DNA of 48,036 nucleotides, from NCBI GenBank assembly GCA_013178155.1, contig JABLXH010000031.1:1-48036 (forward strand), in the 5' to 3' direction. Below are positions 2,339 through 31,222 of this stretch, one piece after another (position 1 is the first letter of the stretch; each line of letters begins with the position of its first letter). The notes under the pieces were generated by a model. The model worked only from the letters and a program-made list of their open reading frames with translations, did not search any database and was not told where the DNA came from. The translations under genes were made by a program, and so were the position numbers. Source of the stretch: Armatimonadota bacterium (GTDB lineage Bacteria > Armatimonadota > Zipacnadia > Zipacnadales > UBA11051).

Positions 2339-3418
2339 ATGGGCACACCTGACGTCAGCTACTTCCGGCCCCGGGGTGCGGTAGACCTCTTTCGCAGCGG
2401 TGTCAATGAGTGCCTCCGAGCCGGCGGCGCAGCCTGGGTCGCGGCCTTCGGGATTCTGGTGGCACCGACTGTCATTGCCGTCGCCGGCCAGGCGGCCCTC
2501 GCCCAGACCGGAGCCATGGAGCTCATGCAGGCCCTGCAGAAGGGCGAGATGCGACCCGAGAACCTTGATCCCGGGGAGATGTTTGGGGCCATTGCCCTGA
2601 TCGTTGGGGTCGGGGCAGTGACCGGAATCATCTCCATGCTGGCGCATTATGCCGGGGGCGTTGCCGTCGCACGCATCTGGGCCGAGCGGGCCCTGGGCCG
2701 CTCCCTGTCGGCTGTGGAGGCCTGGGACTTCGTTCTCGGACGCGCCGCAAAGATAGTCAGCGGGGCGCTGGTGATGCTGCTGGTCCTGGCCGGCGCAGCT
2801 ATTATCGGCCAGATTCCCGGCGGTATCATCGCCGCGATCATCGGTATGTCCTCGGGCCCGATGCAGCCAGGTGTCAGTCCCCCACTTATCATGCGCCTGG
2901 TCCCGATGTTCACCCTGGTACCGGCCATTCTGGCTGTCACCGTCTACCTCGTGGCCATGACGGCGGTGACGGCCGTCGAGAATCTGGGCGGCTTCCCCGC
3001 GCTGGGACGCAGCTTCCGCCTTGCCGGCGGGCAGTTCTGGCATGTCCTGGGCGCTATTGTCCTGGCCGGCCTGGCCTTCACCGCGCCGAGCATGGCGGTC
3101 GGCGCACTGGCCCAGACGGAGTTCGCTGGCGGCCTGCGGGAGAGCCTGGGGGCCATGGCAGGCACTCTGGTCATCGCCGGCGGCAGCTCCCTGCTGTCGC
3201 TCCTGCTGTCGCCTTTTCTGATGTCTGTTCAGGCGGGTCTCTACTTCGACCTTCGCTCGCGCCTCCGCGATGAGCGCTTCACAGCCTACGAGCTGGCACT
3301 GGACGCGGGCGTTGAGTTGCCCGACGGCGTCGTCCCACCTGCGGAGGAGACCGCCTGGGCGCCACCGCCTTCGGCCTCTTCGGACGTGTCGCTGCCGCCC
3401 CCGCCCAGCGCTTCGTGA
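2339..3418 (+). CDS. Multi-pass membrane protein, GPDPase-membrane-domain-like
   Basis: A 359-residue integral membrane protein with about six hydrophobic segments (roughly residues 30-55, 85-110, 150-190, 195-220, 235-265 and 280-305). The stretch near the C-terminus, VQAGLYFDLRSRLRDERF, resembles the conserved end of the glycerophosphoryl diester phosphodiesterase membrane domain and related DUF families (LYyDLR-type motif), whose role is poorly known. A Pro/Ser-rich tail of about 30 residues ends the protein. AGGAG lies nine bases before ATG 2339. The gene sits on the strand opposite to the exporter genes on both sides, is divergent from the MacA-like gene (124-bp gap), and its last 133 bases overlap the end of the ATPase gene antisense. 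It may take part in the exporter or simply be lodged inside it. Topology is clear; function is not. Confidence 0.75.
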   Translation: MGTPDVSYFRPRGAVDLFRSGVNECLRAGGAAWVAAFGILVAPTVIAVAGQAALAQTGAMELMQALQKGEMRPENLDPGEMFGAIALIVGVGAVTGIISMLAHYAGGVAVARIWAERALGRSLSAVEAWDFVLGRAAKIVSGALVMLLVLAGAAIIGQIPGGIIAAIIGMSSGPMQPGVSPPLIMRLVPMFTLVPAILAVTVYLVAMTAVTAVENLGGFPALGRSFRLAGGQFWHVLGAIVLAGLAFTAPSMAVGALAQTEFAGGLRESLGAMAGTLVIAGGSSLLSLLLSPFLMSVQAGLYFDLRSRLRDERFTAYELALDAGVELPDGVVPPAEETAWAPPPSASSDVSLPPPPSAS

Positions 3419-4101
3419 GGCAGGGCATAGCGAGCCGGCCCGTCACTGACAATGCGCCCGTCCCGCACGCGTACGATTCGGCGAGCGCAGTCGGCGATGT
3501 CCTGGTCGTGGGTCACCAGGACAATGGTGACCCCTTCCTCGTTGAGCTGTCGGAAGAGCTGCATGATCTCGATACTGGTGCGGGAGTCCAGGTTGCCGGT
3601 AGGCTCATCGGCCAGGACGATGGCCGGCTCGGTAACCAGGGCCCGGGCAACGGCCACGCGCTGCTGCTGCCCGCCGGACAGCTCCGAGGGGCGGTGGTCC
3701 ATACGGTCTGCCATGCCCACCCGCGCCAGGGCCCGCTCCGCCCGCTCGCGGCGATTGCGGGCGCCCTGGTACATCAGCGGCAGCAACACATTCGCCAGCG
3801 CAGGGGTGCGCGGCAGCAGATTGTAGGTCTGGAAGACAAACCCTATCTTGCGGCTGCGGATGGCGGCGAGGGCGTCGTTATCCAGGTCGGCGACAGACTG
3901 CCCCTCCAGCAGGTACGTCCCCCGCGTCGGGCGGTCCAGGCAGCCCAGGATGTTCATGATAGTTGACTTGCCAGAGCCCGACGGCCCCATCACCGCCACC
4001 ATCTCCCCCGGCTCGATCTGAAGGTCCACGCCGGCAAGCGCATGCACGCGCTGCTTGCCCATCTGGTAGACCTTGTGGATGTCCCGCATCTCGATGAGCA
4101 T
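3286..4101 (-). CDS. MacB/LolD-type ABC transporter ATPase
   Basis: A 271-residue ATP-binding subunit that would power a MacAB-type exporter at the inner membrane. It has all the canonical elements: Walker A GPSGSGKST (39-47), Q-loop Gln in FVFQTYNLLPR (about 91), signature LSGGQQQR (141-148), Walker B IVLADEPTGNLDS (161-173) and the switch His in VTHD (198). Family members end near residue 225. This one carries about 45 extra Gly/Ser/Thr-rich residues, encoded antisense to the end of the convergent membrane-protein gene. It lies on the same strand as the MacA-like and MacB-like genes and upstream of them, but is separated by the oppositely oriented gene, so co-transcription would require reading through that gene. 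No strong ribosome site is visible before ATG 4101. The ATPase call is certain; pairing with MacA/MacB is by position and family. Confidence 0.93.
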   Translation of the reverse strand: MLIEMRDIHKVYQMGKQRVHALAGVDLQIEPGEMVAVMGPSGSGKSTIMNILGCLDRPTRGTYLLEGQSVADLDNDALAAIRSRKIGFVFQTYNLLPRTPALANVLLPLMYQGARNRRERAERALARVGMADRMDHRPSELSGGQQQRVAVARALVTEPAIVLADEPTGNLDSRTSIEIMQLFRQLNEEGVTIVLVTHDQDIADCARRIVRVRDGRIVSDGPARYALPHEALGGGGSDTSEEAEGGGAQAVSSAGGTTPSGNSTPASSASS

Positions 4102-25753: not shown

Positions 25754-28147
25754 TTGTGGCGTTCTCTCCCCATTGCAGGTGTCATGATGATCTCCCTTGG
25801 CATGGCTTCATCCAGCGGTGCCGCGGCTCTTACCGTCACTTCCGACGCCCCCGGCAACCTGTTCGTAGCCGGTGCAACGCCTGAGTTTCGGGTCAGTGGC
25901 CCCACCGCCGCGGGGCGGTTTGCCCTGACGAGCTACTGGGGTGACCAGGTGGAGGCGGGAGACGTGGCGGTACGGCCCGAGGGCGCTCCACTGTCCCTCA
26001 AGCCTCTTTTGCCTGGACACTACACCCTGTCAGTCACAAGCGGCGAAGAGACCGTTTCGGTGCGCCTTGGCGTGGTCATGGACCACAATGGTGCGCCGCT
26101 GGACGCCGAGGGCCGGGTGGCGGTGGATGCCGCAGCGGCCTGGCTGGTCGGGCCGGACCAGTGGCGACTGCTGGCACGGATGGTGCGGCTGGCCGGGATC
26201 CCCTGGGTACGCGAGCGCTTCTCCTGGGGCGAGGTCTCACGAACACCCGAGAGCCTCGACTGGGGCAAGTACCAGACCGTCGCCGAGGCTTTCCACGCCG
26301 AAGGGGTGCGCGTCTACCAGATCTTCCACGATAGCCCGTGGTGGGCCCGGGAAAAGGGCCGCGAGACTCCGAACGTGGCTGACCTGCGGGATTTCTACCG
26401 CGTGACGAAGGCCGCCGCTGAGCACTTCGCCGAGACTATCCAGGCCTGGGAAGTCTGGAATGAGCCTGACATCGGGTTCTTCCCTGACCTGGCGGACCGC
26501 TTTGCCGGGATCCAGAAGGCCTGCTACCTGGGCCTGAAGGCCGGCAACCCCAATGCGCCAGTCCTGCAGGGCTCCTTCTGTCGGGGGCTCTGTCGGTTCG
26601 ATGAGGCGCTCTTTGAGCAGGGCATCGCGCCGTACTTCGATGTCTTCAACTGGCACATCTACAACACGCCCGAGAGCTATGCGCGAGTGTTGGACGGCTA
26701 CCGGGGCCTGCTCAGGCAGTACGAAGCGGAGTCCCGGCCGATCTGGCTCACGGAAGCAGGGATTCGCCTCGAGGGCACCGAGGGCGACCGAAAGCAGCAC
26801 CTCAACGACGCCGACGAGCGGCGCCAATGCCAGTTCGTGACGCCGTCCGTCGTCAGCTCCCTGGCTGCCGGCACCGATCGCCACTTCTTCTTCGTGTTAC
26901 CCCACTACCTGGAGAATGGTGTCCAGTTTGGCCTGCTGCGCCCGGATCTGACCCCGCTGCCGGGGTTTGTGGCCCTCTCCGCCTGCGCCAACCTCCTCGG
27001 CAACGGGGATTACCTCGGCGAACTCAAACGGCTTCCCGAGGGCGTGAAGGGTCGAGTCTTCCGCACCCCGCGCGGCAACACTGCGGTGCTCTGGGCCGAA
27101 CAACCCACGGAGGTGACGCTTCCCTGTCACAGTGGGGCGCCGATGGCCCGCTTTGACGTCTTCGGCCGCGAAACGCCGCTCCCGGTAGTGGGCGGTCGCG
27201 TCAGCCTGAGTGTGGGGCCGGAGGCGTGCTACGTCACCGGGTTCGGGACTGCACTACCGGGGCCAGTGCGCGGACCGGTGCGCGCTCGCGGTGTACTGCC
27301 CCATAACCGGCCGTCGCCAGTCTTCATCGTGGGCCATGCTGACCTGCCTGTAGACAAGAACCGCAACACCTACCGGGTCAGCGCTAGAGAGTTCATCACA
27401 TACCAGGTTGACGTGTACAATTTCGACGAAAGCGCCACCCACAGCGGTGTCTTGCGGCTCAAACTGCCCAGCGGGTGGACGGCTCCAGGGAACGAGGCCG
27501 AGGTGACGGTAGGCCCGATGGGACGCGAAACCCGTCGCTTCCGGTTCATCGCTCGCGGCACGGACCTGGGCCTGGAGACGGTCCGCGTGGAAGCGGACTT
27601 CCCGGGGCTGGAGGCGGGAGCCGCCGTGGCCGATTTCACTCTCGATGCCGCCAGCCTGATACCGACCGAGGAGCGTGGGCTGTCGCTGGCGGTGGGCGGC
27701 TGGAGGCCGGGCATCAGCGGCAATGGTGTCGCTGAGCACTCGCAGGGGCCGGACGGCGAGTACGTCCTTACGGCGCGCTACCATCAGCCTGGCGACCGCT
27801 GGTGCTACTCGACGCTGGCCTTCGATCCCCCCTCGAGCTTCGCGGGCTACGACGGCGTCAGCTTCGAGGTGAAGGCCTCAGCGAACGACGAGAGCACACG
27901 AATCCGCTTCATGGTGGGGGAACCCAACGGGGCGCGGTACTACACGCCTGACGGCGCTCCGGCAAGGGCCGATTGGCAGCGCGTTGTGTTTCTCTTCCGC
28001 GACCTGCAGTGGGGATCGTTCTCCTCGCCCGACGACAACGGGCGGCTGGACCTGAACCGTGTTTCGCGCATCGAACTGGGGTCCAACACGGCTCGCGATG
28101 AGATGACCCTGGAGTTTCGCCATCTCCGGCTGGTGAAGCTGCAGTGA
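25754..28147 (+). CDS. Secreted clan-A glycoside hydrolase (GH5/GH39-like) with C-terminal binding domain
   Basis: A 797-residue exported enzyme, read from TTG. A signal peptide (about 1-25) and a beta-sandwich (26-108) come before a (beta/alpha)8 barrel (about 125-440). Both catalytic glutamates of clan A are visible: acid/base in WEVWNEPD (E237) and nucleophile in RPIWLTEAG (E334), with the aromatic-His strand FNWHIY (299-303). It would hydrolyse beta-linked glycans with retention; the substrate is unknown. After a barrel-associated beta domain there are an Ig-like domain (about 520-640) and a C-terminal CBM11-like sandwich (about 650-797; DGVSFEVKASAND, WQRVVFLFRDLQW). It lies 86 bases after the YyaL-like gene and ends before a strong hairpin shared with the convergent GDPD gene. 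The family number (GH5, GH39 or related) cannot be fixed by eye. Confidence 0.85.
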   Translation: MWRSLPIAGVMMISLGMASSSGAAALTVTSDAPGNLFVAGATPEFRVSGPTAAGRFALTSYWGDQVEAGDVAVRPEGAPLSLKPLLPGHYTLSVTSGEETVSVRLGVVMDHNGAPLDAEGRVAVDAAAAWLVGPDQWRLLARMVRLAGIPWVRERFSWGEVSRTPESLDWGKYQTVAEAFHAEGVRVYQIFHDSPWWAREKGRETPNVADLRDFYRVTKAAAEHFAETIQAWEVWNEPDIGFFPDLADRFAGIQKACYLGLKAGNPNAPVLQGSFCRGLCRFDEALFEQGIAPYFDVFNWHIYNTPESYARVLDGYRGLLRQYEAESRPIWLTEAGIRLEGTEGDRKQHLNDADERRQCQFVTPSVVSSLAAGTDRHFFFVLPHYLENGVQFGLLRPDLTPLPGFVALSACANLLGNGDYLGELKRLPEGVKGRVFRTPRGNTAVLWAEQPTEVTLPCHSGAPMARFDVFGRETPLPVVGGRVSLSVGPEACYVTGFGTALPGPVRGPVRARGVLPHNRPSPVFIVGHADLPVDKNRNTYRVSAREFITYQVDVYNFDESATHSGVLRLKLPSGWTAPGNEAEVTVGPMGRETRRFRFIARGTDLGLETVRVEADFPGLEAGAAVADFTLDAASLIPTEERGLSLAVGGWRPGISGNGVAEHSQGPDGEYVLTARYHQPGDRWCYSTLAFDPPSSFAGYDGVSFEVKASANDESTRIRFMVGEPNGARYYTPDGAPARADWQRVVFLFRDLQWGSFSSPDDNGRLDLNRVSRIELGSNTARDEMTLEFRHLRLVKLQ

Positions 28148-28226: not shown

Positions 28227-29375
28227 CTAGGAGCTTCGGCGCTTGATCACCTCGCGGAGGCGCTCCGGGAAGTTGGTCAGGATGCCCTGCACACCCAGGT
28301 CCAGCATGCGCTCCATGTCAGCCACCTCGTCGGCCCAGAAGACGTTGATCCACATCTGCCTCTCGTGGGCATACCGCACGAAGTCCTCGTCCACCTCGCG
28401 GAGCGAAGGTTGGATGATCCGATAGCCCATGTAGTAGGCGTCATCAATGTACTCCTGGCCGGGTTCGCCGCCATAGGGCAGCCAGCAAAGCCGCAGGTGC
28501 GGGTCCAACTCGCGCAGGCGGTGCAGGCCGTGCCGGGTATGGTGGGTGACGATGGTTCGCTTGCGGGCCTCGTGGCGCTCGATGCAGTCCACCAGCGCCC
28601 GCTCGCAGCGGTCGGTCTCGTTCTCGTGCGCCCGCAAGTGGGCGATCAGCAAAGTGGGGTATGGGATTGCCTCGAAAACCTCGTCAAGGATGGGAATACG
28701 CTCACCGGCGAAGGCGGGGTCAAACCAGTTGCCCGCGTCCAGGGCCCTGATCTGCGCCAGGGTCATGCTGGCGACAGGCCCCGTGCCGTCTGTGCAGCGG
28801 TCCACCGTGGCGTCATGGATGACCACGGGCTGACCATCACGCGTCAGGTGCACATCGAACTCGATGGCCTGTGCTCCCTGCTCCAGCGCCGCCCGGAAGG
28901 AGGCGATGGTGTTCTCTGGCGCTGCCGCCGGCGCTCCCCGGTGCGCGATGATCAGAGCGTGCTTGGGCTCCCGCAGGGGCGGCTCCCGCGGGATGGTGAT
29001 GACTTCCACCTCCTCCAGACTTCTCGGCGCGGTCGCGGTCCTGGTGCTCGCCGTAGATCGTGGGGTGGGCTCCGTGGCCGCCGCTGCTGCCGCCGGCGTC
29101 CCTGCTCCATTGACCGAGACTACGATGGTCCCTGGCGGGCGCGCCAGTGCGGCCTCGGAGGGCAGCCAGTCCTTGCAGTTGAACGAGAGGGCCAGTCGCG
29201 TCGGAGCCTGTGCCTCGTGGACCGGTATGGGCACATCCAGCAGCCGGCACATGGAGTCCTCGGCCCGGTAGTTGACGCAGTCCGCGCAACGGTGGGCGGG
29301 GTGGTAGCAATGCCGACACTCGCGTTGCGTCTCGACCCAGATCTCCTGACCGCACTGCCAGCAAGTCATCCACAT
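28227..29375 (-). CDS. Zinc-ribbon/glycerophosphodiester phosphodiesterase fusion
   Basis: A 382-residue protein without a signal peptide. Residues 1-70 are a Cys-rich module with CWQCG (C5, C8), CRHC (C20, C23), CADC (C30, C33), C43 and C67, probably binding one or two zinc ions. A low-complexity Ala/Thr/Pro/Ser linker (about 92-118) joins it to a glycerophosphodiester phosphodiesterase domain (138-380). The GDPD active-site set is present: AHRGAPAAAPENT (H145, E154), EFDVHLTRDG (E172, D174) and VIHDATVDRC (H187). The usual Glu-x-Lys strand is replaced by LIAHLRAHE, so substrate handling may differ. The family hydrolyses glycerophosphodiesters to glycerol-3-phosphate and an alcohol. AGGAGG is six bases before ATG 29375. 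It diverges from the DNA methyltransferase gene. Both domains are well supported; the reason for the fusion is unknown. Confidence 0.88.
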   Translation of the reverse strand: MWMTCWQCGQEIWVETQRECRHCYHPAHRCADCVNYRAEDSMCRLLDVPIPVHEAQAPTRLALSFNCKDWLPSEAALARPPGTIVVSVNGAGTPAAAAAATEPTPRSTASTRTATAPRSLEEVEVITIPREPPLREPKHALIIAHRGAPAAAPENTIASFRAALEQGAQAIEFDVHLTRDGQPVVIHDATVDRCTDGTGPVASMTLAQIRALDAGNWFDPAFAGERIPILDEVFEAIPYPTLLIAHLRAHENETDRCERALVDCIERHEARKRTIVTHHTRHGLHRLRELDPHLRLCWLPYGGEPGQEYIDDAYYMGYRIIQPSLREVDEDFVRYAHERQMWINVFWADEVADMERMLDLGVQGILTNFPERLREVIKRRSS

Positions 29376-29683
29376 GGTGATCCTCCTGGGCCCTCGATAG
29401 CGGTCGCCGCTGGCGGAGCGGCTGCTCGGGAAGATACGCCATAGTATGTGTTTGACGCCCGGCTTGGAGTTCCTTCAGGGATTTGTAGGGTTTCCAAGCG
29501 ACGCGGGCAGGCTAGCCTGGTGCCCCGGCGCCGAACCGTGCCATGCCCCGCCCATTCCCTGCGGAGCAACCTGGTCTCCCCGTGCTGATCATCGTTCTCG
29601 CGGGCTTCGTTCCCGTGCGCTTGTGTATCCCCGCGGCTGCATGCTACAATCGGTACACCACTCCCCTGCCTTAGGCTGCCGCC
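29376..29683. other. 308-bp divergent intergenic region
   Basis: This is the only stretch over 300 bases without a gene. It separates the GDPD gene (minus) and the DNA methyltransferase gene (plus). It holds the AGGAGG site of the GDPD gene at its left end and a good plus-strand promoter near its right end. I see no tRNA-like cloverleaf, repeat array or plausible small ORF in the middle, which is GC-rich and otherwise featureless. Confidence 0.6.
29621..29650 (+). promoter_or_regulatory. Sigma-70-like promoter for the DNA methyltransferase gene
   Basis: TTGTGT (29621-29626) and TACAAT (29645-29650) are separated by 18 bases, near the housekeeping consensus. Transcription would start about 26 bases before ATG 29684, leaving a short leader with no clear Shine-Dalgarno sequence, so translation may be leader-independent or weak. 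Confidence 0.5.
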
Positions 29684-30619
29684 ATGCCCTCTCAACGCCC
29701 GCGCAACCGCCTCAATGACCTCAGCAATCGCGAGTGGCTGCGCGAGACCAAGAGCTTCTGGGTTTCGCAGGCCGACCAGACCAGCCACTGGACCGCCGAA
29801 GACGTCGAAGACCTCGCTACCTGGCTTCGCGAGAACCGTGGCGCTCAGCGTGCGGAGGCCATGCTGGAGCAGGCGCTGGCCAGTCACATGCTCTCCGTAG
29901 CTCCCCCCCGGGGAGCCCTCAAGGCTCTGCATCCCGCCACCTTCTCCGAGCGCGATGTGGAGCGGCTGATCAGGTTCTTCACCAGAGCCGGGGAGACCGT
30001 GCTAGACCCGTTCCTGGGCAGTGGGTCCACGCTGGTGGCTTGTCGCGCTTGTGGCCGACGAGGCGTTGGCATTGAGCTGGTTCCGCAGTGGGCAGAAGTC
30101 GCCCGTCAGCGCCTCGGCCCTGAGGGCGATGCAGACGACGCCACCGTCTGCGAAGGGGACGCCCTGTCGGTGTTGCGGCAGTGGGAAGCCGACAGCGTTG
30201 ACTTTGTGGTCACCAGCCCGCCGTACTGGTCAATCCTGGGGAAGAAGGGGATGAAGGTCCGGGCCGAGAGGGAAACGCGGGGTTTGCCGACGAAGTACAG
30301 TGAGAGCGAGCACGACCTGGGCAACATCGCTGACTACAGCGAGTTCCTGGAGCGCCTGGCGGAGGTATTCACGGAGTGTGGCCGCGTGCTGCGCCCCGGC
30401 CGTTATATGGCGGTCATTGTCTCGGACTTCCGCCACGGGCCGCAGTTCGTGCTCTACCACGCCGACCTGGCGCGGCACATCGAGGCGGTGGGCCTGCCGC
30501 TAAGAGGCGTGACGGTGCTGCTGCAGGACAGCAAGAACCTGTATCCGTTTGGCCTGGGCCACGCCTTTGTGTCCAACATACACCACCAGTACATTCTGAT
30601 TCACCAGAAGCCAGGATAG
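29684..30619 (+). CDS. Solitary DNA methyltransferase (N4-cytosine/N6-adenine type)
   Basis: A 311-residue amino-methyltransferase that would transfer a methyl group from S-adenosylmethionine to an exocyclic amine in DNA. The AdoMet motif DPFLGSGSTL (108-117) comes first and the catalytic TSPPYW (177-182) follows about 65 residues later, with a short variable region after it (SILGKKGMKVRAERETRG) as possible target-recognition part. That order (I then IV) is the gamma-like arrangement. The S in TSPPYW is more usual for N4-cytosine enzymes, the D/N-PPY form for N6-adenine, so N4-cytosine is slightly favoured. No restriction endonuclease gene is near, so it is probably an orphan regulatory or protective methylase. 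An N-terminal 80-residue region (DLSNREWLRETKSFW) is not recognised. It is followed 48 bases later by the AMMECR1 gene. Confidence 0.85.
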   Translation: MPSQRPRNRLNDLSNREWLRETKSFWVSQADQTSHWTAEDVEDLATWLRENRGAQRAEAMLEQALASHMLSVAPPRGALKALHPATFSERDVERLIRFFTRAGETVLDPFLGSGSTLVACRACGRRGVGIELVPQWAEVARQRLGPEGDADDATVCEGDALSVLRQWEADSVDFVVTSPPYWSILGKKGMKVRAERETRGLPTKYSESEHDLGNIADYSEFLERLAEVFTECGRVLRPGRYMAVIVSDFRHGPQFVLYHADLARHIEAVGLPLRGVTVLLQDSKNLYPFGLGHAFVSNIHHQYILIHQKPG

Positions 30620-30667
30620 GGCGACTGTCGGGGTGCCCCCGCCTGGCTGGCAAAGGACGGACGCCGC

Positions 30668-31222
30668 ATGCTGACAGACCAGCAAAGAAAGCGCCTGTTG
30701 CAGGTGGCACGGCAGTCGCTGCGGGCCGCTGTGGGATCGGGGCAGCCGCCAGACTTGCGGACCGATGACCCCGACCTGAGGCGCGTCCAGGGGGCCTTCG
30801 TAACCCTGCGGAAGCACGGTGATCTGCGAGGCTGCATTGGCCACATCGAGGGGCAGCTACCCCTGATTGAGACGGTGGCCGAGATGGCCGAGGCGGCGGC
30901 GTTGCACGACCCCCGCTTCCCACCGGTCACGGCCCACGAGGAACCCGAACTGGACATCGAGATCTCGGTCATGTCCCCGCTTCGCCCGGTCGGGAATGTC
31001 AGCGATATCGAGGTGGGCAGACACGGTCTGGTGGTCTCCTGTGGCCCGCGCCGCGGGCTGTTGCTGCCGCAGGTTGCCACCGAGTGGGGCTGGGACCGCG
31101 ACACCTTTCTGGCTCACACCTGCCTGAAGGCTGGGCTGCCGACGGATGCGTGGCGACGTCCCGACGTCACCATCGAGTGCTTTGAGGCGGAGGTCTTCGG
31201 CGAGCGAGACGAGAGCGCGTAG
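30668..31222 (+). CDS. AMMECR1-domain protein (AmmeMemoRadiSam system protein A-like)
   Basis: A 184-residue cytosolic protein almost entirely made of an AMMECR1 domain. The invariant LRGCIG motif is at 53-58, followed by the HDPRFPPVT segment, the DIEISVMSPL strand and the GLLLPQVATEWGWD region that ends the fold. In many bacteria this domain occurs with a Memo-like protein and a radical SAM protein (the AmmeMemoRadiSam set), but neither partner is in this window. The biochemical role is not established; the conserved Cys suggests chemistry on a thiol or metal. The gene follows the DNA methyltransferase by 48 bases on the same strand and is probably co-transcribed. AAAGGA lies eight or so bases before ATG 30668. 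The domain call is very sure. Confidence 0.93.
   Translation: MLTDQQRKRLLQVARQSLRAAVGSGQPPDLRTDDPDLRRVQGAFVTLRKHGDLRGCIGHIEGQLPLIETVAEMAEAAALHDPRFPPVTAHEEPELDIEISVMSPLRPVGNVSDIEVGRHGLVVSCGPRRGLLLPQVATEWGWDRDTFLAHTCLKAGLPTDAWRRPDVTIECFEAEVFGERDESA

Follow-up and report, generated by a model that had tools for sequence, protein, structure and literature searches.

A cysteine-rich module fused to a GDPD-family protein with an altered metal site in the Armatimonadota

The fusion gene and the layout of its product

The window, a stretch of 48,036 nucleotides from an Armatimonadota bacterium, carries a gene in which a cysteine-rich module is joined through a linker to a GDPD phosphodiesterase domain (Table 1). 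The reading frame runs on the minus strand, from 29375 to 28227, a point on which the first-pass annotation had been silent, and it stands there alone, flanked by plus-strand genes. The glycosidase-like neighbour of 797 residues was without a Pfam match at E 0.01, and among six genes scanned around the fusion gene Pfam identified no metal-homeostasis gene. A scan for promoters and terminators around the fusion gene found none, with about none expected by chance.

Table 1. Features of the fusion gene and its surroundings, in window coordinates
Feature	Position	Strand	Basis
Module-GDPD fusion CDS, 382 aa, stop included	28227..29375	-	ORF and five further full-length copies
AGGAGG Shine-Dalgarno-like site, six bases 5' of the ATG	29382..29387	-	read from the sequence
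Cys-rich module, residues 1-72	29160..29375	-	8 Cys invariant in 22/22 aligned copies
Ala/Pro/Thr-rich linker, residues 73-137	28965..29159	-	3/65 positions invariant in six copies
GDPD domain (TIM barrel), residues 145-371	28263..28943	-	PF03009, E 4.9e-43
His145-Arg146 (His17-Arg18 of 2pz0)	28938..28943	-	alignment
Glu172-x-Asp174 (metal ligands Glu44 and Asp46 of 2pz0)	28854..28862	-	alignment; ligand role from the excerpted text of PMC4926365
His187 (His59 of 2pz0)	28815..28817	-	alignment
His246-x-Arg248, replacing Glu119-x-Lys121 of 2pz0	28632..28640	-	invariant in 6/6 fusions
His250-Glu251-Asn252, fusion-typical loop past the swapped strand	28620..28628	-	invariant in 6/6 fusions
His278-His279-Thr280-Arg281-His282, end of the next strand (S151-F152-N153-H154-Y155 of 2pz0)	28530..28544	-	alignment
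797-aa ORF on one side of the fusion gene	25754-28147	+	glycosidase-like by eye
N6/N4 DNA methylase gene, then AMMECR1 gene, on the other side	29684-31222	+	Pfam

The start codon is backed by the Shine-Dalgarno-like site and by Met1, which is kept in all six full-length copies of the fusion in a six-way alignment. Overlapping reading frames are numerous in this region, so that an ordinary GDPD bearing a spurious N-terminal extension had to be considered; however, the ribosome-binding-like site stands at the ATG of the fusion, the five other full-length copies align with the window protein from residue 1 and over nearly the whole length at 46-58% identity, and 22 of the 72 module positions are invariant. 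On the strength of those copies and of the Shine-Dalgarno-like site we regard such an extension as ruled out, and chance or artefact as an extremely improbable origin of the arrangement. Reading the N-terminus (MWMTCWQCG...) by eye gave no sign of a signal peptide, in agreement with the first-pass annotation, which had been made from the sequence of the window and had also described the eight cysteines within the first 67 residues, mostly in CxxC arrangement, and the low-complexity linker behind them.

Both of these descriptions held. The module cysteines are C5, C8, C20, C23, C30, C33, C43 and C67, six of them falling in three CxxC pairs; further cysteines occur past the module at positions 194, 257, 264 and 297. 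When the fusion protein was shuffled, at least eight cysteines in the first 67 residues were obtained in 16 of 100,000 cases and at least three CxxC pairs in one of 20,000, but the conservation of the cysteines is the stronger evidence that the module is real. All eight are invariant in the six fusions, as is Trp13. The distribution of invariant positions over the six sequences (22/72 in the module, 3/65 in the linker and 81/243 in the GDPD part) shows the linker behaving as a tether between two domains that are both constrained.

The GDPD domain scored 148.4 bits against PF03009, far above the gathering cut-off of 23.6 bits, and the NCBIfam search of the fusion protein returned GDPD-type equivalogs only, all below their cut-offs. 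Its closest solved relative by sequence was 2pz0 (E 1.2e-39). The same structure was the top Foldseek match of the AF2 model, with an E-value of 6.8e-21 and a TM score by target of 0.88, as expected of a TIM barrel. In the AF2 models, whose alignments were built on four fusion records from a named genome collection, 21 of the 25 ten-residue blocks from residue 141 on had a mean pLDDT of at least 75, linker residues 80-136 remained below 50, and the module reached a mean of 54 when modelled alone and less than 50 over most of its length in the full protein.

Occurrence of the fusion and of its module

A search of 291 Armatimonadota genomes, in which up to six candidates were scored per genome (an earlier round had covered 61 genomes), found the full-length fusion in six: the window genome (G000), G001, G009, G014, G043 and G044. 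The six fusions come from three families. A scan of the named genome collection with two patterns, which divergent copies may escape, gave four fusion records, all titled Armatimonadetes or Armatimonadia; most likely these are the copies of G014, G009, G044 and G043 again rather than new ones. Run against the 46 genomes searched of the class, a profile of the module matched nine at E ≤0.01: the six fusion genomes, G042 with its stand-alone module, G041 with a copy, and G037, where the match is weak and contains an internal stop. Plasmid records contained no match to the window's module, and none of 182 pattern-matching stretches from viral contigs encodes a relative of the fusion; spread of the fusion by plasmids or phages was rejected on these two results. 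All six fusion genomes also keep a GDPD with the canonical Glu-x-Lys strand (rows L120, L106, L108, L110, L111 and L112 of our GDPD alignment), which makes the fusion an extra, specialised protein. We conclude that this is a real, conserved and rare domain fusion within one bacterial phylum, probably a specialised variant of a known GDPD enzyme family rather than a new kind of machine.

The gene neighbourhoods differ between the families. One gene slot recurs with and without the GDPD part: in G009 (L052:1797-4781) an FtsX-like permease, an ABC ATPase and a peptidase M28 protein come after the fusion, and in G042 (L056:560-3353) the stand-alone module precedes FtsX, an ABC ATPase, a small gene and a homologue of the M28 protein. 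The permeases, ABC ATPases and M28 proteins of the two slots are 55.6, 75.2 and 53.6% identical, respectively, which argues for gain or loss of the GDPD part next to the module at a single position. A piece of a permease gene at a contig end also follows the fusion in G014, while the window homologue of the ABC ATPase (3286-4101) lies 24 kb from the fusion gene, and G043 and G044 have a different neighbourhood in common. The ABC ATPases of the two slots (L052:3822-4781 and L056:1782-2744; 319 and 320 aa) begin with a short CxxC-type stretch of their own, and the window homologue is shorter, at 271 aa. Because the adjoining genes vary between the fusion-bearing families, the neighbours gave no hint of a substrate.

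The module itself is far more common than the fusion. A query made of residues 1-80 of the window protein matched 67 of 201 Armatimonadota genomes at E ≤0.01 and 58 at E ≤0.001, nine of the 67 having matches only between these two values. Among these matches, the 30 that came with loci were classified by context: 15 carry the module C-terminally on ParB-like proteins, nine are short or other frames, and six are the GDPD fusions. The ParB-like assignment is based on strong similarity to one protein with ParB_N and HTH_ParB domains, which is itself encoded at one of the 15 loci (L034); Pfam, run on three of the 15, found both domains in each (L057, which is the L034 protein, L045 and L046). ParB-like proteins with the C-terminal eight-cysteine module occur in several Armatimonadota families (L034, L036-L039, L041-L050 and L057), where the module, we presume, may stand in for the dimerisation domain usual at the ParB C-terminus. 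One stand-alone module gene, of 76 aa, adjoins a RelA/SpoT gene (L059:3443-5883). Small proteins with a similar CxxC..CxxC..CxxC..C..C order are known from other bacterial phyla.

After removal of eight near-copies of one row, 22 of the 30 module copies were aligned. All eight cysteines, together with Arg29, Asp32, Pro58 and Ser64, are invariant in the 22, the window copy included, although this invariance is partly by construction, the copies having been gathered as matches to the window module. No match of any of the 22 copies to a Pfam family reached its cut-off. Weak matches were seen to PF12773 (DZR) in ten copies (best E 0.0017, 18.9 against 27.3 bits), to PF18912 (DZR_2) in nine (best E 0.0021, 18.3 against 27 bits) and to PF13240 (Zn_Ribbon_1) in nine (best E 0.00012, 22.2 against 25 bits); the window copy matched Zn_Ribbon_1 only, at 14.3 against 25 bits, and the L059 copy had no Pfam match at E 0.01. 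With NCBIfam, the scores of 11 copies all fell below cut-off, for the other 11 the per-family best E-values were all 0.00056 or higher, and the window copy was without a match above cut-off. The best match of the module profile among solved structures had an E-value of 0.091. The module is thus a general annex, widespread in the phylum and mostly not on GDPDs. A widespread and already described annex of GDPD proteins is not what was found, six of the 30 loci being GDPD fusions and all 22 copies remaining below the Pfam cut-offs. The first-pass annotation knew of no characterised protein with this arrangement, and we found no description of a module-GDPD fusion in the open-licence literature searched, where the one paper naming both a glycerophosphodiester phosphodiesterase and a zinc ribbon concerns a Microbacterium prophage; nor did that literature, judged by title, offer a description of a ParB C-terminal zinc ribbon or of an Armatimonad ParB module, or anything on an Armatimonad glycerophosphodiesterase with a metal-site histidine.

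The GDPD active site and its relatives

From the alignment of the Glu-x-Lys strand we take the third metal-binding glutamate to be Glu119 in 2pz0. Alignment with this structure confirmed the intact His/Glu/Asp/His set read in the first-pass annotation: His145, Arg146, Glu172, Asp174 and His187 are invariant in the six fusions, and the equivalents of His17, Arg18, Glu44, Asp46 and His59 are present in all 50 aligned GDPD rows, fusions included. According to the excerpted text of PMC4926365, GDPDs share the motif HR..EN..ExD..HD, His17 and His59 are putative catalytic residues, and the divalent metal is coordinated by Glu44, Asp46 and a third glutamate (Glu111 in pfGDPD), as also in ttGDPD, where an alanine mutant of any of the three ligands is inactive; docking places His17, Arg18, His59, the third glutamate and the lysine two residues on at the substrate. 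The window protein has the full motif (H145 R146, E154 N155, E172 D174, H187 D188), with the Asp that follows H187 being Asn in two of the six fusions.

The canonical third glutamate with its lysine is missing, as had been noted from the sequence; beyond that earlier reading, we found that His246-x-Arg248 stands in its place in 6/6 fusions and that the Glu to His exchange is common to a broader set of GDPDs without the module. The replacement is accompanied by further fusion-invariant residues (H250, E251, N252, D255, R256 and H278-H282). With His246 and Arg248 these make 12, and nine of the 12 occur in at most four of the 43 other GDPD rows, the exceptions being H246, R256 and H278, which are common to more rows beyond the fusions. 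Within the HEN loop, His250, Glu251 and Asn252 were met in one, three and one of the 43, and at the end of the next strand residues 279-282 are fusion-typical while His278 is more widely shared. Residues that never vary among the fusions but occur in just 0-4 of the 43 other rows are Arg248, His250, Glu251, Asn252, Asp255, Ala260, His279, Thr280, Arg281, His282, Gly283, Asp312, Tyr315, Tyr335 and Trp342. The fusions keep the replacing residues without exception, and most of these are rare in other rows; this looks like selection on a new residue set rather than decay, and the loss of Glu-x-Lys looks, as far as the alignment tells, like the remodelling of a site. Simple loss of the active site was made less likely by the same invariance.

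A quick, midpoint-rooted tree was calculated from 49 of the 50 aligned rows (the duplicate L092 was dropped), 48 from the phylum plus 2pz0, the rows being best matches and chosen paralogues and hence a non-random sample. A single branch with an SH-aLRT of 99 separates the fusions from the other rows. Glu occupies the third-ligand position in 26 of the 49 rows and His in 21, with Asn and Gln in one each; besides the six fusions, the His rows comprise 15 rows of the phylum without the module (L008-L016, L089, L090, L094, L095, L107 and L109), which have Lys, Tyr or Arg at the lysine position. A group of 26 rows (SH-aLRT 98) encloses the fusions and all 21 His rows. The site is not uniform, since the group also holds three Glu-x-Lys rows, one Gln-x-Tyr row and one Asn-x-Asn row, and at least two Glu/His changes are needed on the tree. 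Outside the phylum, Glu-x-Lys was found in all six GDPDs fetched from 12 listed matches among 574 plasmid-collection records, several of the records behind these outgroup sequences being chromosome-sized.

Interpretation and comparison with known systems

Architecture, conservation, exchanged residues, phylum distribution and the grouping of the fusions as one clade come directly from this analysis; for zinc, metal preference, activity, substrate and the docking role we infer the following. The reading that we favour, to which we give about an even chance, is that the fusion is a GDPD-superfamily phosphodiesterase, cytosolic and probably active, with a rebuilt metal site, docked or dimerised by a structural zinc module. 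An altered metal-dependent phosphodiesterase appears most likely because the histidines and two carboxylates are kept and the third ligand has changed in a conserved manner. The general acid/base histidines (145 and 187) and two metal carboxylates (172 and 174) would be retained, the third metal ligand would pass from Glu to His246 and the substrate-contacting Lys to Arg248, and the two loops nearby, HEN..DR and HHTRHG, would be re-specified. The likely outcome would be a different preferred metal, perhaps a softer transition metal, and a different substrate, probably a small soluble phosphodiester. For the module, the AF2 model was poor, so that two structural zinc sites, one at C5/C8/C20/C23 and the other at C30/C33/C43/C67, are proposed from the cysteine spacing; on its flexible tether the module may dock or dimerise the enzyme. 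Its occurrence on ParB-like proteins, on an enzyme and alone suggests that it serves in this way rather than as a sensor.

The main rival, unlikely in our view but the one with most weight, is a pseudoenzyme in which the barrel has lost metal-dependent hydrolysis through the exchanges Glu119 to His and Lys121 to Arg and now binds a ligand or a partner. Histidine is a competent metal ligand, which speaks against this, and so do the equivalents of the catalytic His, Arg18, Glu44 and Asp46 in every one of the aligned GDPD rows and the strict conservation of the replacing residues across the fusions. The pseudoenzyme is favoured by the Glu-x-Lys of all six other-phylum GDPDs fetched and by the need of ttGDPD for its third metal Glu, as given in the excerpted text of PMC4926365; a histidine there could abolish catalysis instead of altering it. 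The latter point also stands against the altered phosphodiesterase, as does the unevenness of the third-ligand site inside the 26-row group. The module could also bind nucleic acid or the nucleoid and place the phosphodiesterase on DNA or RNA, with a nucleotide-derived substrate. Half of the classified module loci, those on ParB-like proteins, and the weak likeness of the module to zinc ribbons, both double ones and ribosomal or RNA-binding ones, agree with this, but the similarities for which scores were seen all fall below curated cut-offs and a zinc ribbon could equally mediate protein contacts; we consider a nucleic-acid role improbable.

The first-pass annotation had proposed a cytosolic metal sensor attached to a lipid-headgroup enzyme. 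A distinct Cys-rich module on a cytosolic-looking GDPD is indeed what is present, and the eight cysteines with their CxxC pairs and the flexible linker would suit a module that senses metal or redox state and switches the enzyme. The word sensor, however, found no support: the cysteines do not vary to His or Asp in the aligned copies, those on ParB-like and short proteins included, which fits structural zinc sites, the module sits in unrelated contexts as a general annex and not a GDPD-specific one, and the six genes scanned with Pfam around the window gene include none for metal homeostasis. The sensor was therefore demoted to a rival, and a quite improbable one.

A more far-reaching version of the favoured reading, which we hold to be doubtful, is that the Armatimonadota have a GDPD branch whose third metal ligand changed from Glu to His, and that a single lineage of it was later joined to a zinc double-ribbon shared with ParB-like proteins, which would give new metal chemistry and a new substrate. 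If true, the module would position the phosphodiesterase at the partner that ParB-like proteins use, and a nucleotide or another small soluble phosphodiester would be an example of its substrate. In any case the fusion offers a natural test of a GDPD metal site that has been re-liganded (Glu to His, Lys to Arg) with the rest of the catalytic set kept, and it brings to light a module, below the Pfam cut-offs in all 22 scanned copies, that has been shuffled between enzyme, ParB-like and short proteins. We see in it a useful and moderately surprising variant for specialists, which settles no large open question.

Among known proteins, the cytosolic GDPD of Thermoanaerobacter tengcongensis (2pz0, PF03009) shares with the fusion the TIM barrel and the equivalents of His17, Arg18, Glu44, Asp46 and His59, but the fusion differs from it by His-x-Arg in place of Glu119-x-Lys121, by the conserved HEN..DR and HTRHG stretches, and by the N-terminal Cys module with its linker. 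The 'NIHLK'-type GDPDs (L008-L016), the next-best matches after the fusions, have the same Glu to His change at the third ligand, whereas their Lys is kept and the module, HEN..DR and HTRHG are absent from the rows as read. The Pfam families DZR, DZR_2 and Zn_Ribbon_1 resemble the module in their CxxC knuckles and lack the additional invariant C43 and C67 and the R29, D32, P58 and S64 signature. Finally, ParB-like proteins such as L045, L046 and L057 carry a homologous eight-Cys module, which in them is C-terminal to ParB_N and HTH_ParB, whereas in the fusion it is N-terminal on an enzyme.
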